NCBI RefSeq assembly: GCF_963678975.1
Contig: NC_089273.1
Coordinates: 24,074,356-24,138,355 of the forward strand
Length of the DNA stretch: 64,000 nt
Direction: 5' to 3'
Source: Dysidea avara
Taxonomy: Eukaryota > Porifera > Demospongiae > Dictyoceratida > Dysideidae
Shown here piece after piece: positions 6,500 through 61,798 of the stretch. The notes beneath the pieces were generated by a model. It had not been told where the DNA came from. It was given only the letters and a program-made list of their open reading frames with translations, and searched no databases. The position numbers and the translations under genes were made by a program. Within the stretch, counting starts at the first letter, position 1. Every line of letters starts with the position of its first letter.

Positions 6500-7837
6500 C
6501 GCGGTCGCAGATCTACCTACAGCGCGTACCTACGTGACACCCCCTTTACCACTGAACTAGAGAATCTGGCTCTCCCAAACCAGCCTGTTTGTGCCCCTCC
6601 TCTTGCTAACTCCTGGATCCGCCCCCCTGGTTTAGGCCGTTTTAACGTGCAAAAATTTCTGTATAAATTCAGTATTTTGTTGTACACACCCGGAAAGTTA
6701 CTAAACAGACTCGAGGTAGGCGATACACATTTATAGCTAACCATTGGCTAGCTTTTCAGATCACAAATTACGCACAGAACTATTCTCTCTGATAGTGTGT
6801 CTATCGTGTTTTCTCACGTAAAGTACTCCGGGATACCCGTCGAACACTAGTACAAAGCCATGCAAATTCCGGCCCGTTATTCGTTGTTACTGCATACTAC
6901 AGCCGTGTAGCTATATAGCTAGCTACGTACCTGCATGTGAATGATGCTACACCAATAATTACAGCCAACTGTACCTTGTGCAAACTACATACCAATATTA
7001 TCCAGCTAGCCCAGTCACTAGACGAATCGAAGAATCTTATAACGAATAAAACTCACTGCCGGCAGTTCACAACCCACGTAGCAAGATTGTAAATAATATT
7101 ATCTATGGCAAGATAATTCATTGCCGGGTCAAATAAGGTATTGCATCGCCTTATATGATGAATTATGAAAACTGCCACTATAAAAACAATAGTAGCCACA
7201 CATCATATGACAGAATACATTTCCATGCAAGCAAATACTGGTTTGGGATAATACTAGTGGAAATATCTGATTGCACTATTATAAAATCTAGCTTGCTTCT
7301 GTAATTGCACACAGTATAGCTAAAAAATTAGCACTAGCTATGTCAGTGCTTCTAAGTCAGGTAGCCGCTACAGGTTGACTGGTAATGGCATCATGTAGTA
7401 AGTAGCTGATTACATTTAATGCCAACTACAAATATCAATTCTTTTATCAGTCACAGTGGACACCTTTTTTGGAGAATGTTTACATATTAAGTTGAATTTG
7501 CAGTGGCCATGATATGCATAAATGTTGTATGTGATTCTGGACGCTTAAAATTATCAGTTACCACAAGGCACATGATGATTGTAACATAGCTGAACATAAA
7601 GTAGCTAACATGTAGCTGAGCAGTCTACAGGATGACTTGTAAAGTAGTGTAAGTCTCTACAGCACATCATCTTTATTATTCATTCACAGTGCACACCTCT
7701 AACAAGAAACCAATTAAAACAGTGCACTTTTGGTGGTAAACAGAGCCACAAAGTCGATTACTCAGTATATAAATAAATAAAAGGAAACCATATAAATAAA
7801 TAAAAGCAATAGTGGAACACACAATTTTATGGACAAT
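6500..7837. other. Non-coding spacer
   Basis: No protein-coding or RNA gene recognised. The two opposed frames around 6491-6744 are shadows of each other without a domain. The stretch leads up to the left terminus of the ISL2EU element. Confidence 0.6.
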
Positions 7838-8447
7838 ATCCGCAATGACGTTTACTTACGCGTGCGTGACGTTTTATTGCGTCACCATCGTTATGGCTTC
7901 CGATATGTGGGGACTTTGTACAGGAATGAATGGCGAACGTGGGTGTTTGTGATGAATGACTCAGTAGATCTGAAGGAACTTGCTGGTGAGCGATATTAAC
8001 AATATTGCGATATGAGTAATTACTTTTGCGCGCCGTTAGCGAGTCCCTGTGGTCGATTTCTGGCTAGTGGGCATTAAATGTGAGACGAGCTATAAACACA
8101 GCGTGCACACGTTAAATAAGTTTACCCTTGTCTTCCAAGGACCACTGAGCAGTGTAAATGAATTTTTAAGCTGGTCAAGCCCCGGAACCTAGCTACTAAG
8201 CATGTTTTCATGTGTATGGCTGGGTCCTTAAAATGTGTTTGCCCTATAAAGGCATACACCCCAAACAGCAGGGCATGATATGATCCAGACAGAGTTTTAA
8301 TGTGTGTTACTAATATTGTAGGGTGTGAAGGCAACACTGCTGCGTCCTGCGCTGGCCAGGATACCATTCCAGGTGAGATTTTTCAGTGTACACACATGCA
8401 ACCAAGTAGTCTTCTGTAGATGGTGAACACAGTAGTGCTAACAGCAG
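7838..8447 (+). repeat. Left terminal inverted repeat of the ISL2EU element
   Basis: This 610-bp arm is matched in inverse orientation by 14043-14652 with scattered substitutions. It contains exon 1 (7952-7985), exon 2 (8322-8372) and the start of exon 3 (from 8420) of the plus-strand gene, plus presumably its promoter. The inner boundary is where 'gtgctaacagcag' stops matching. Confidence 0.9.
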
Positions 8448-11400
8448 TCCAGCAGCAGAGAATGGCAGGGATAGGATCCTTGGTAAGAACAACTTTGTGC
8501 TATATATCTACCTTTTATTCATATTGTATCAACAATGTATAGGTTATGGCAACCACAATGGCTGCTTATCGCATGATGACTTGGTAGCTTTCACAGCAGA
8601 CAGTGGCATGGATGGGCTTGCTGGTACGACCATTTTAACAGACATAGATGTCAGAAAATTTTGACTGTAGTGTTTGTTTTATTTAGACTGTAGTACCTAT
8701 GTTTTGCATGATGGTGCATATTCTGATGCAGCGGAGACTAGTACAGTCGGTAAGATGGTTTGTGTAATTCATATGAAGTTATCAAGCACCATCTCAGGCT
8801 CTGAAGATCTTGATAATATTATTGATGATGATCCTGATGATGATACTGACTATGATGGTATTTTATTGACGGAAGCTGATATACCTCGTGCGAAGAGTAG
8901 TAGGGATAAGGCCCTTGGTAAGACGATTTGTGTAATTCATATGAAGTTATCAAGCACCATCTCAGGCTCTGACTATCTCGATAAGATCACTAATGACGAT
9001 CCTGATGATGGTATTTTATTGACAGAAGCCGATATACTTCGTGTGAAGAGCAGTGGGGATAAGGCCCTTGGTAAGATGATTTTTGTAATTCATATGAAGT
9101 TATCAATCACCATGTCAGGCTCTGAAGATCTCGATGATGATCCTGATGGCAATCCTGATGATGATGCTATTTTATTGACGGAAGCTGATATACCTGGTGC
9201 ATCACTAGATGGCAAGCATCCTTCAGAGCTGAATGTTACAGAGCTGAAGAGGTGGCTCAACTGTCGTAGTGCGCCTGTCAGTGGAAGAAAGCCAGAGCTG
9301 ATTGATCGGTAAGAATATGCATTTTGTTATTATTGACCTTTCATGGCCATGATTTGTAGAGTATGTAATTATATCAAGTATGGCTGGGACATTTACCTTG
9401 TTGATCCTGATGGTGGTGCTAATGTACAGAATAAGCTACAAGTGGCACAGTTGAATAAGAATCCTGAAGATGTTACTTTACTGCGGACCATTCCTGACAT
9501 TAAGGACAGCCTCTGGACCAAGGAGATTTACAAAGCCCCCAGTGTTACTTTCGGCACGATTTATCAGTTTTTAGTTGAACGCAAAGTTTTAATCAAGAAA
9601 GCCAACCATTTAGAGAGTGTGATTGATAGGAGAGACAGTTCTGATCTTGGAGTTCATGTTCAAGGCAATGTCAATCTGAGCCCTGGTACATCTGAATCGG
9701 TTAGCTACACTCGAACGTTGGACAAAGCTTATCGCTTTTTTCAGGATGGCCATGTGCAGAAGGTTTGATATCATCCAATGCCAAGTCTCCCAGAGTATGT
9801 TTGCATCGGAGCATCTGTACTACCATCAATGAAGAAGAACAAAATGTACAATGTACGTGTAGTATTGTCTAACAACACTGCACATGTGTGCAAAGCCATC
9901 TGTGATTGCCCAGCTGGATTACCTGGCTGCTGCAATCACATTACAGCTACGCTATACTGTGTTCAAGAATATTTTCATTTAAAGATCAATGAAGAGGATC
10001 AGAAGAGTTGTACTGAAAAGCGGCAATCCTGGAATGTTCCAAAGAAGAAGAAGGTAGATGCACGACCAACTAAGTTGGTCACATTGACTAAAAAAGTTTA
10101 CGGGGTAGAAAAACGACCAAAACTCTGTAGAGTTAATCAGTGGGATTGTCGACCTACGTCCAGAAGGACTGCACATCCGAAAAGAAGAACAAGTTTGGTG
10201 AACAGATTGAGTCAGATACACCAAATGAAAACTGAAGCTGCATCCCACGCTGTTTCTTCAGCTGTCAGTGATGGTGACAAGAAGAAAGCATCTAAGACAC
10301 AGTCTATGTTATTTAGCTATGGAACATCTTGTTTTTTTACAGCTGTTGGATGAGGAACCAGCTCCATCAGAAAACAGACTTGACCAAATTAGAAAAGAAC
10401 GAATTGCCAGAGCAGAAGCCAAGAAACTTCAATTTCAGCTGAGTTTATTGTGCCTCACCAAAATAGTAAATCATGACCATGATTACTGTACAACTACTTC
10501 ATTGATCCAGCGTAAAATTGATGGTGTGCCTGCTCCACACCATTTGGTCAGGAATCTTTATGAAGAGCACGTATGTATCAGTCCAACAGAGGCAGCAGAT
10601 TTGGAAATCAAAACTCGAACTCAAGCTCAGTCGAGTCTTTGGCATGAAGAGCGAAAGTTCCGAATTACTGCTTCAATAATGAAGACTGTGTGTCATAGAA
10701 AGCTAAAACAGATATGATTCCTTTTATCAACAGCAAGTTAGCTCCAAAACCTATCACCACACCTGCAATTGACTATGGAAAAAGAAATGAAGATGTTGCA
10801 ATTGGATGTTACATTGACCATCAGAGGAAGAAGGGAGTTATTGTGAAGGTGTGTGAATGTGACTTGTGGATTGATTCAGCCATACCATGGTTAGCTGCAA
10901 CTCCAGACTCCATACTTGAAGTGGGTGAGGACAGAGGATGCTTGGAGGTGAAGTGTCCTTATGTATGTGCCAATATGTCACTTGCTCAGGCTTCAATGAA
11001 ATCATCCTCTTTTTGTTTACAAAATGGTAACGGAACTTTGCAATTAAAAAGAAACCACCAGTATTTTTATCAGATTCAAGTACATCTTCATGTTACCTGT
11101 CTGTTATGGTGTGACTTTGTAGTATGGACTCCTAATGAAATTTACATCGAGAAGATTGATTATGACCAAAGATTTATTGAAAAGGCCATTTCAAAGGCTC
11201 GGACTTTCTATTTCACTGTGTTTTTGCCAGCTATAGTTCCATATGTCCTCATTCATGATGATAACATGCCGATTGTTGATCTGCCTTCTGCTCCTGTTGT
11301 GACAAAAACTGCGAGTACTGTGTACGAAGAAATTGAACCATTAGATTTTGTGAGTCCAGCAGAAACTTTCACCATACCTGAAGCTATAGAAAATGCTGTC

Positions 11401-12164
11401 TGCAAAGATGTCATGAGTGAATGTGTTCCTGCAATAAGCAAGTCACAGGAATCGCCATGTGTACTTCCATCGGTTATTCATGACAAGAGCTCACAAGTTG
11501 TCAACCCTTTTACTATGACAAAAACTGTGAAGCAGAGTACTCAATCTGTTTGTGCAACAAAAACCTCTATTACAAAAACACGACTGAAAGTGGATGACAA
11601 TTGTGAGGTTTCAATTATGGGTGTCTCTGCCATCAGCCACTCACCTCAACAGTTATCTATTGTATTGCAGCAACTGCATTATGCACAGCATAAAGTTTAT
11701 GGTGATGGCAATTGCTTATATCATGCAATAGCTCACCAAGCTGGGTTTATTGAGCAAAACTCTTCTGGAGACGTATTTGTTGCTCAACAGCTAAGAATTC
11801 TAGCATTGCATTGTATGAATAAATACCCAGAAGTACGTAGAGAGGATGGCATTACACAGCTTCAGTGGGAGGAAAAAAAAGCCGCATTTTGCAGTTGAGT
11901 GAATGGGGAGGTGATTTGGAAGTTCGTCTACTTGCTATAACAATTGGAAGAGAAATAGTGGTTGTGACTGGATGCAGAGGAATGTTTACATCAGCACGGA
12001 AATTTCCATGTAAAACACCTCCTGTGCCAAAAATGAGAGGGGGCATTTTTATTCCTATTGAAATTGCAGAGTTGTGTGTGCAGTGGAATAACTATGAACC
12101 AATACCATTTCTTATTGTATACAATGGTGTTAATCATTACGATTCTACTGTTTGTATAAGTTAG
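7952..12164 (+). pseudogene. ISL2EU accessory gene: SAP - SWIM - YqaJ nuclease - OTU protease (decayed)
   Basis: A multi-exon gene. I read exons at 7952-7985, 8322-8372, 8420-8482, 8543-8623, 8687-8749, 8798-8917, 8966-9070, 9119-9308 and 9360 onward; the first seven joins are phase 1 and the last is phase 2, and all keep frame. Domains in order: acidic Asp-rich repeats (exons 6-8); SAP DNA-binding helix pair ([14 protein letters not shown], about 9210-9306); SWIM zinc finger (CDCPAGLPGCCNHI, about 9901-9945); YqaJ-like nuclease (WLAATPDSIL, GCLEVKCP, YQIQVHLHVT, about 10714-11260); OTU cysteine protease (GDGNCLYHAI at about 11700, WGGDLEVRLLA, and the final NHYDST holding the likely catalytic His). 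Lesions: in-frame TGA at 9766-9768, frame changes near 10320, 10710 and in the A run at 11873-11880. It ends at 12164, convergent with the transposase. Function is inferred: nucleic-acid processing and deubiquitinase-like activity. Confidence 0.82.
8750..9118 (+). repeat. Three tandem exon + 48-nt intron units
   Basis: Introns 8750-8797, 8918-8965 and 9071-9118 are each 48 nt and nearly identical (gtaagatg...tttgtaattcatatgaag...tcag). Each is followed by a related acidic exon (GSEDLD...[10 protein letters not shown]). Because 48 is a multiple of three and no stop is present, the frame is open through the introns as well. Confidence 0.8.
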
Positions 12165-12216
12165 TCTATGTATGTATACATTGACATGTTAATATCGTTT
12201 ACAATGATTATTGGCA

Positions 12217-14537
12217 TCAACACACTAATGGCGGCCCAAAATTAGTCAGCATGCAACAAACGTATATTATGTCACTGATAGAATCCCACATGGAAGCAGG
12301 CAAGGTCTCTCATATAATACGATAGTCCTTCACACGATCGACCAATTGCCCTTTCCACATGTACTCTTAAGCGAGCAATTTTTTTGGTTACAAATACATC
12401 ATTGGCTGGCATTTGTGAATTAGACTGAAGGAATGGCGGCATATTAAGGCGGACACCATATGGGACTAACATGTCTTGTATTGTAAATCCTTTGTCAGCC
12501 ATTATTTCATCACCGGGTTCTAATTTTGCTAATAATCCACTAACTTCTACCAGTTTACGATCAGATACTGAACCTTCGTATGCTTCAGAAACAAATGATA
12601 TTGCCCCACTTGGTGTTACTCCAATCAAAATTTTAACTGTGTTTCTGCTTTTGTACGCTGAATATGTGCAAGCTTGAGAAAGCAAAGAAGATGGTCGCTC
12701 AACTGAAAACTCAGTAGCATCAATTATAACTCTAGTGTTAGGATAATCTTTCTTGAAAGTCTTGGGCATATATTTTTTGACTACGTGCCAAGCTGGAAAT
12801 GTTTCAATTGACTTAAAACTGTGGAACATCAAGTTGATCCAAGTGTTTGTGATTCGCGACACAGATGGCTGTGAAATATCAAATCTGTAGGCGATGTCAT
12901 GTTCAAGTAAGCCTAGTCGTAGCCGAACTAATGTCAAAAAAAATTGCTCTTGTAATGGAAGCTTGAAGGTACGTCCAACTTTCACATCACTGTAGTCACA
13001 TTCACTTCTATGGCCACTCCATTGCCGCATCACTTTAGCATCAGATTCTAAAATCTCCTCATGAAAAGCCACCAGTGTTCATAGTCATTGAAACCAGTGT
13101 AAAATTTTACTAAAGTGTCATTGCCCTTGATGTTTTCCATCCTAAACAAAGACTTTTTAAGCATATTCTCTGAATCTGCAAGCTTTCTTTCCATATCTGC
13201 TAGCTTACATTGCATTTGCAATAGTTTACTCTGGGTATCAGTTAGATTACTCTGTACATTGGCGAACTGTCTTTCATTATCTGCAAGCTTGCTCTGCATA
13301 TCGGCCAACTGCTTTTCAGTCTCTGCAAGCTTGCTCTGTGCAACTGCCAACTGTCTTTCCGTCTCTACAAGCTTGCTCTGTGTAACTGCCAACTGTCTTT
13401 CAGTTTCTGCAAGCTTACTCGATGTACCAGTAGGAATGCACCCCAAATCTGCTACTTGATTTTGAAGCTTTAGAGTCTCTCTTTCAAAATCTGTTATAGA
13501 ATTAGGAGAATCGGTACCTTCACAATCAGTATTAAAATGTTGCAGTTCTCCATCATATGTATCCATATCAACATCAAGTGCAGAAATATCCTTCACATCA
13601 CAGCTATCAACTGTTAATGACTGCAATGCCTTCGTTGAAGTTATCAACATACGTTTCTTTTTCTGATTCCATGGAAATACAGAAGGATCGGCGGAAAGTT
13701 TAAGACATCGGTTTTTACCTCCAGACCAAGTACAAAATGCTCCGAACAAATTTTAGTATTCTGTGTAATAGCAAAGTGCTTTCCAGGATCATGGCGAATT
13801 AAAGCAATCCACTTTTTCCTTTAGCTGAATATGCAACAGGAAAAGTGTGAAATGATATTTTTGGCAGACCTAATTTTTCCTGCTCTTTCCTGTGACCAGC
13901 AGAATTGTGACAATCTGGTACGCAACAATAGTGCCCTTGCCAAGACTTTTTCTTGCTACTGACAGATTTGGCTGCACCTTCACTATAAAAGTGATCATCC
14001 TTCGATTCATCTCCAACATTCTCTGCTGCAGGTAGATCAGTTCTGCTGTTAGCACTACTGTGTTCACCATCTACAGAAGACTACTTGGTTGCATGTGTGT
14101 ACACTGAAAATCTCACCTGGAATGGTATCCTGGCCAGCGCAGGACGCAGCAGTGTTGCCTTCACACCCTACAATATTAGTAACACACATTAAAACTCTGT
14201 CTGGATCATATCATGCCCTGCTGCTTGGGGTGTATGCCTTTATAGGGCAAAAACATTTCAAGGACCCAGCCATACACATGAAAACATGCTTAGTAGCTAG
14301 GTTCCGGGGCTTGACCAGCTTAAAAATTCATTTACACTGCTCAGTGGTCCTTGGAAGACAAGGGTAAACTTATTTAACGTGTGCACGCTGTGTTTATAGC
14401 TCGTCTCACATTTAATGCCCACTAGCCAGAAATCGACCACAGGTACTCGCTAACGGCGCGCAAAAGTAATTACTCATATTGCAATATTGTTAATATCGCT
14501 CACCAGCAAGTTCCTTCAGATCTACTGAGTCATTCAT
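12217..14537 (-). pseudogene. ISL2EU transposase: THAP zinc finger + HTH + DDE_4 nuclease (frameshifted)
   Basis: Exons at 14537-14504, 14167-14117 and 14070 downward. Exon 3 reads on from the inverted repeat into a THAP finger (HYCCVPDCHNSAGH, then FHTFP, CSEHF, and the terminal SVFPW), broken by frame changes near 13817 and 13720. A long heptad-like coiled coil follows (13450-13160, repeated ETERQLAVTQSKLV-type units). Another frame change near 13070 leads to a helix-turn-helix (DIAYRFDISQPSVSRI) and the DDE nuclease: RVIIDATEFSVER (Asp 1), MADKGFTIQD (Asp 2), RVHVERAIGR (Glu). After that Glu the frame shifts again near 12337, and the family-like end LTNFGPPLV is read in another frame up to a stop at 12217-12219. 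Known role: cut-and-paste transposition. This copy cannot make a full product. Confidence 0.85.
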
Positions 14538-14652
14538 CACAAACAGCCACGTTCGCCATTCATTCCTGTACAAAGTACCCACATATCGGAATGCCATAAC
14601 GATGGTGACGCAATAAAACGTCACGCACGCGTAAGTAAACGTCATTGCGGAT
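14043..14652 (-). repeat. Right terminal inverted repeat of the ISL2EU element
   Basis: Inverse copy of 7838-8447. On the minus strand it holds ATG exon 1 (14537-14504), exon 2 (14167-14117) and the first 28 nt of exon 3 (from 14070) of the transposase gene. Exons 1 and 2 are base-for-base identical to their left-arm counterparts. Confidence 0.9.
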
Positions 14653-15152
14653 ATCGCTTATTTGTATGCTTCGTAAGAAGGAAAATTCGTGGCCTAGTAA
14701 GGATCACACTGCTATAATTATAGTGTATATATATACCACAAGCCTGTAGTCAACTGTATGTATCAGCAAGAGCCTATAAGCAATTTGCAAGCAGCTTATG
14801 CCTTTTGGTTTTAGATGCAACTGAATGTTTACAAAGACACAAGATCTACTTCCAGCACCAGCTAGAGATGACATTGGATTTTTTCAAGTAATTTTTCTTC
14901 ATTTGAATCAATTCCCTTGACCCACATTAACATGTGTACAAAGAGACAATCTAATACAAATCAGTTTTACTTCATTATAAAGGATAATCTGTCTAATGCA
15001 TACACACTAACCAGAGTTTTTTTTTTGCAGTTATGACATAATTACTAAACAATTTTTTTTTTCTACTGTATAATACAGCACATGGCACACAGTGAAAATT
15101 TTCAAATAAATCACAATACTAAACTATTACAAAATCTTATTTCAAGCAACAA
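14653..15152. other. Non-coding spacer
   Basis: No gene seen between the ISL2EU element and the 3' end of the NHL gene. The poly-T/A runs near 15019 and 15052 may belong to the 3' UTR of the NHL gene on the minus strand; no clear polyadenylation signal could be assigned. Confidence 0.5.

Positions 15153-47457: not shown

Positions 47458-61798
<14,341 letters not shown>

Follow-up and report, generated by a model that had tools for sequence, protein, structure and literature searches.

Terminal inverted repeats of a sponge ISL2EU transposon appear to hold a shared coding start for both of its genes

The window, a stretch of 64,000 nucleotides from the sponge Dysidea avara, contains an ISL2EU DNA transposon with two convergent genes at positions 7831 to 14659. 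Comparison of its flanks with those of the close copies L012 and L013, which run from GGAC to GTCC between two AT dinucleotides, identified a duplicated AT at 7829 to 7830 and 14660 to 14661. The duplication is present at the window copy, L012, L013, and L053, in each case judged from the flanks. The terminal inverted repeats (arms), as defined by their alignment and the flanks, occupy 7831 to 8447 on the forward strand and 14043 to 14659 on the reverse strand. A sequence-only reading of this DNA had proposed 610-bp arms and an element starting at 7838. The long identical arms stand, but their ends lie 7 nucleotides further out, giving 617 bp, and we discarded 7838 in favor of 7831 on the evidence of the L012 and L013 flanks. 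The tips of the window copy read GGAC on the left and, read inward, AAGC on the right; GG ends are found at its left end and at both ends of L012, L013, and L053, and its right end is AA. AAGC takes the place of GGAC at the transposase-side tips of the window copy (14653 to 14659) and of L014 (left end), a side-specific variant in arms that are otherwise homogenized.

Pfam searches of the element match SAP and YqaJ domains and, below the cut-off, OTU on the forward strand; on the reverse strand, a sub-cut-off THAP match is followed by HTH and DDE domains. In the left gene, an open stretch at 8671 to 9312 ends in the SAP domain (1.3e-06, above cut-off), and a second at 10699 to 11898 holds YqaJ (7.6e-07, above cut-off) and the start of the OTU-like match (0.0099). 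The gene ends in an open stretch past a frame break (11841 to 12164) that has no Pfam match. Its product had been read as a SAP/SWIM/YqaJ/OTU protein; SAP and YqaJ hold, OTU stays below the cut-off, and no SWIM match was found by Pfam in this gene. The transposase, on the reverse strand, carries its HTH and DDE domains at 12272 to 13078 (HTH_Tnp_4 3.1e-19, DDE_Tnp_4 9.9e-36) and a coiled-coil-like middle at 13048 to 13752, which gives weak coiled-coil matches only. Its THAP match scores 0.0012 (20.0 bits against a cut-off of 23.9). In the sibling L052, THAP scores 3.6e-13 and YqaJ 9.7e-17. Downstream frames are broken in both genes of the window copy, and the arm exons are intact. The left gene also contains tandem repeats of about 150 to 170 bp (...LLTEADI) at 8749 to 9200, apparently duplicated coding units, and 84-bp repeats lie within the coiled-coil part of the transposase (13244 to 13420). 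Elsewhere in the window, 56766 to 58653 is probably a Harbinger element, with a Myb/SANT-like gene on the forward strand and a DDE_Tnp_4 transposase on the reverse strand.

The two arms are complementary at 99 to 100% in three blocks (7836 to 8447 and 14043 to 14654), with 11 substitutions over 616 aligned sites, 4 of them at the tips, plus short gaps. Nine arm differences fall within 7836 to 8447, none of them in 7952 to 7985, 8322 to 8372, or 8420 to 8447. These three intervals correspond to the predicted start of the left gene: a leader exon with its ATG at 7952 to 7985, which the gene finder also chose, a second exon at 8322 to 8372, as indicated by relatives, and a third at 8420 to 8482, whose first 28 bp lie within the arm. 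On the reverse strand, exon 1 of the right gene (14504 to 14537) and exon 2 (14117 to 14167) are identical to their left counterparts, as had been claimed, and the third exon (13802 to 14070), again with its first 28 bp within the arm, contains the THAP start. Direct comparison thus bears out the proposal that the arm exons lead in phase into the SAP- and YqaJ-containing protein on one side and into the THAP transposase on the other. Spliced in this way, the two predicted proteins would begin with the same 37 residues, MNDSVDLKELAGCEGNTAASCAGQDTIPDGEHSSANS, in agreement with the roughly 37 first suggested. Beyond the arm edge at 8447, similarity between left and right continues but decays, with PAAEN on both sides.

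Some details of the gene models vary. For exon 2 of the left gene, the gene finder favors an alternative acceptor at 8289 (same phase, 11 additional residues) over 8322, which is favored by the relatives C14 and C4. Five ATGs lie upstream of 7952 in the left arm. One extra base in the right arm produces a longer frame, and the model there begins at an upstream ATG with the exon end unchanged, and the left model of L013 also begins further upstream. At the left end of L013, the AT duplication and the GG end together spell an ATG whose frame is open into leader exon 1, probably by chance.

Close relatives retain this arrangement. Both leader exons and their splice sites are kept in both arms of L012 and L013 and in one arm of L014, whose other arm is cut off before exon 2, and the leader exons differ by few substitutions among copies of the window family. 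L014 (C15:1989200-1997500) is a rearranged copy that retains both ends and has a partly inverted and deleted interior. On C14, a single, diverged end encodes MIDSTNLKEIA followed by DCEGNVTAIDADKDTIF, with exon lengths unchanged (34 and 51 nucleotides) and in frame into THAP; the C14 fragment L015 was left out beyond its match. Across exons 1 and 2 in the predicted frame, the window copy and C14 differ at 11.2 of 18.5 synonymous and 17.8 of 65.5 nonsynonymous sites (one-sided Fisher p = 0.009); the two remaining frames give p = 0.39 and 0.65. Exon 1 alone gives no significant frame signal in comparisons of C4 with either the window copy or C14. In the C4 pair of neighboring elements, exons 2 and 3 are common to both ends; the ATG exon at the left end reads MKQSRRFKEES, and the right end that was read has no ATG exon.

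A transposase search of the 550.8-Mb host genome, whose filamin, trypsin, EGF, and NHL domains look animal-like, returned at least 144 matches, and the true number is higher, since only 143 of 909 candidates were scored. Outside the host genome, the transposase search gave 0 pattern matches in viral contigs and 27 in contigs of prokaryote species, none of them confirmed, and our comparison among elements is confined to the one genome of D. avara. There, we inspected both ends in 12 groups (the window group, C4, L051, L053, L054, L041, L038, L025, L050, L055, L036/L052, and L056); the C4 ends come from two neighboring elements, the L036/L052 ends from different copies, and for L025 the stretch covered stops short of the left gene's start. 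Places with both arms number seven for L053, six for L054, five for L041, two for L038, and one for L051. Elements of about 320 to 390 bp with ISL2EU-like ends of about 60 bp (for example, C9:15265314-15265704 and C13:7959393-7959715) are probably non-autonomous derivatives.

In 6 of the 12 groups (the window group, L051, L053, L054, L041, and L038), both genes are modeled with their start codon and leader within the arms. The leaders are mostly unrelated between groups and range from 5 residues in L038 (MDHSA, in an arm of about 180 bp) to about 150 in L053, where a 1186-bp arm encodes MNSVKNSRESS along with a series of acidic exons (six, and part of a seventh). The L053 leader includes serially similar phase-1 exons starting DAEG, DAED, and DAES, which suggests exon duplication inside the terminal repeat. 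L051 has an arm of about 790 bp, a leader starting MITVKKLSNND, and five arm exons by the gene finder, and L054 has an arm of about 276 bp with the leader M(K/E)AKNDASLSTPHANDDSHLDSG. The clearest case is L041, where an ATG at position 73 of a 326-bp arm opens 84 codons that run to the arm end. This frame is open in all seven close arms read (five right, two left), and on the left side it continues unspliced towards SAP as ...NDCNKPPNGDILMLTETDIPGASL. Among diverged relatives of L041, L064 is broken and L063 has no ATG; both were excluded from the coding test. Leaders are often acidic, with D+E to K+R ratios of 7:1 in the window copy, 20:5 in L051, and 30:9 in L053; the C4 leader (9:9) is not.

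The sequence-only reading was to be abandoned if relatives had arms lacking the leader. Such arms occur in two of the 12 groups, L036/L052 and L056, where the arms are short and each gene has a start of its own; four more (C4, L055, L050, and L025) are partial, borderline, or unclear, and half keep the design. In the distant sibling L056, each protein begins immediately ahead of its motif, SAP-side or THAP, MPHGCCVP being among these starts; outer inverted blocks of 128 and 83 bp at this element were not taken as its arms. L055, with a 262-bp arm, has its ATG at the arm's inner edge. Two candidates were dropped: L050, whose score was matched by 106 of 200 shuffled arms, and L025, whose identical 338-bp arms have no clear leader.

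These shuffles come from a test in which each pair of arms was dinucleotide-shuffled 200 times with the real interiors kept, and the joint score of both genes was compared with that of the real element. The gene finder used generic splice weights, not trained on the host, and codon odds from both genes of L052. The real joint score was matched by 1 of 200 shuffles for the window copy and for L054, by none for L012, L013, L051, L053, L038, or L041, and by 8 for L055. Further, for both genes the arm start scores higher than any inner start in the window copy, L012, L013, L051, L053, L054, and L041. In L038, the gene finder found no inner start for either gene, and in the window copy, L012, L013, L038, and L055, it found no open inner start that reaches the THAP anchor. 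The left gene of the window copy does have an inner start, which scores 29.2 against 45.3 for the arm start. The right-hand join of L054 is weak, with a 10-nucleotide exon 2 and a weaker margin matched by 7 of 200 shuffles. Apart from that exon, all called arm exons end in phase 1.

The history of the arms differs between families. Four features of the window copy, L012, and L013 (indels of 7 and 21 bp, and the substitutions in columns 24 and 597 of the alignment) follow copy lineage and not side, unlike the tip variant AAGC, which sorts by side. Since both arms of a copy lineage share the indels, homogenization of the arms in the window family took place after the copies had diverged. Elsewhere, a tendency to sort by side is seen: in four of six two-armed L054 elements, with the two C10 copies undecided, and in L041, whose left and right arms have residues of their own. 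Conversion that keeps the arms alike in all families is ruled out by this grouping, which leaves it at most episodic. A tree of 32 transposase rows, all from this genome, places the window, C4, L051, L053, and L025 groups in one clade (98/99); L054, L041, L038, L055, L050, and L036/L052 fall outside it, and L056 has a very long branch. The six leader groups are therefore distributed both inside and outside the clade of the window copy.

Taken together, three lines of evidence support a shared gene start within the arms: the gene models, conservation against one diverged relative in the predicted frame only, and the recurrence of the design in five more groups. We consider it probable that arms grown inward hold a promoter region, the start codon, and the first coding exons for both genes of these ISL2EU elements. 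In this scheme, the terminal inverted repeats would have extended until they captured the promoter region, the ATG, and the first exons, and each arm would be transcribed inward. With arm exons that end in phase 1, one leader could be in frame with either gene, so that the YqaJ-type nuclease and the THAP transposase would begin with the same residues; by the same token, a start region copied to the other end can join the second gene in frame. End-to-end copying, by gene conversion or by repair that uses the opposite end as template, would have spread the leader and may at times keep the arms alike. That the arms are transcribed, that the transcripts are spliced and translated as modeled, and that the arms grew inward is our inference. 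As the L056 proteins start directly at their motifs, the leader looks like an addition, a polarity that we likewise infer. The motifs TGACGTCA, which we take to be CRE-like, AAAATGG, presumably YY1-like, and GGGGACT recur near many ends, and this conservation suggests that a promoter may be copied in each arm.

It is improbable, in our judgment, that the arm exons form a shared 5' untranslated leader only, with translation of each protein starting further inside. This arrangement would resemble MuDR, whose arms are described as holding promoters and transcription starts (PMC3440606), and it gains from the five upstream ATGs, which make scanning to 7952 uncertain, from the position of the L055 start, and from the weaker inner start of the left gene in the window copy. 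Against it, the gene finder gave no open inner start to THAP in the window copy, L012, L013, and L038, and such a leader does not account for the frame-specific constraint between the window copy and C14 or for the 84 open codons in every close arm of the L041 group, unspliced towards SAP on the left. The shuffles bear on a chance origin, in which long arms merely contain open, splice-like chains and owe their length to transposase binding, as in Galileo, where arms of about 1.2 kb contain several THAP binding sites (PMC3688188). An open chain of some kind does exist for both genes in most shuffled arms (both margins are positive in 198 of 200 for the window copy), but the real joint score is reached by at most one shuffle in 200 in the six supported groups and two siblings of the window copy, and the seven close L041-group arms all stay open, which makes chance a very remote explanation.

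The preferred reading, a coding start captured by the arms, leaves room for different views of what the residues do. The shared leader could be a working module that persists because neither protein can do without it, for instance for mutual contact or joint regulation, and its occurrence in half of the groups with both genes in frame, the constraint between the window copy and C14, and the frequent acidity of the leaders would fit. We regard this as rather unlikely: the leaders are mostly unrelated between groups and vary from 5 to about 150 residues, that of C4 is not acidic, and some groups have no leader at all. Moreover, the called exons of the left and right arms in the C5 copy of L041 are separated by seven amino-acid substitutions and a single silent one, suggesting that the residues are hardly constrained. 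The cheapest view is that the leader residues are tolerated passengers of arm growth. That the arms stay long on account of the leader, as had also been proposed, does not follow, as a 326-bp arm (L041) already holds 84 leader codons. A more speculative idea, to which we give little credence, is that the leaders are family-specific identity tags, a matching tag pairing an element's own transposase and nuclease rather than the proteins of siblings in the same nucleus.

If the reading is correct, terminal repeats act as coding exons, two unrelated proteins receive the same N terminus from two DNA copies, and long transposon arms have a concrete consequence. Annotation of the arms as non-coding would then trim the start off both proteins. 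Arm lengths in the sibling groups run from about 50 to 1186 bp, a ready-made series for studying how inverted repeats grow into genes, and with many copies in one genome, RNA and peptide data could test the design directly.

Partial parallels exist outside transposons: immediate-early genes of the herpesvirus short region have a common 5' region in repeats, and plastid inverted repeats can end inside a gene. Among transposons, the nearest working analogue, for promoters only, is MuDR (Mutator) of maize, which likewise has two convergent genes and is described as carrying promoters and transcription starts in arms of about 215 bp (PMC3440606). That description concerns promoters and transcription starts, not shared coding exons (PMC3440606). 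Pfam gave no Mutator-type (MULE) match in the window copy. The MuDR transposase belongs to a different family from that of ISL2EU. Galileo and Foldback-like elements share unusually long arms and a THAP transposase (PMC3688188), and gradual growth in arm length has been proposed for them (PMC3169594). Galileo, however, belongs to the P-element superfamily, and the account of its long arms invokes multiple THAP sites without a shared coding start (PMC3688188). In the ISL2EU and related transposon literature, mostly at the level of abstracts, we found no description of arm-encoded residues common to two transposon genes. A 2-bp target duplication is an ISL2EU trait, and the window copy resembles this group in its DDE_Tnp_4 and HTH transposase, YqaJ second gene, AT duplication, and GG left end. 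Published accounts of ISL2EU, placed in the PHIS superfamily and found in animals, describe a transposase with THAP, HTH, and DDE domains, a second protein with YqaJ, and ends that are usually GG (PMC4482050, PMC9179366); target duplications of 0, 2, or 3 bp are reported in the wider group around it. The published arm lengths of 6 to 259 bp are a survey range rather than a definition (PMC4482050). The arms of the window copy (617 bp) and of its sibling L053 (1186 bp) lie outside that range, and both gene starts are predicted to lie within them.
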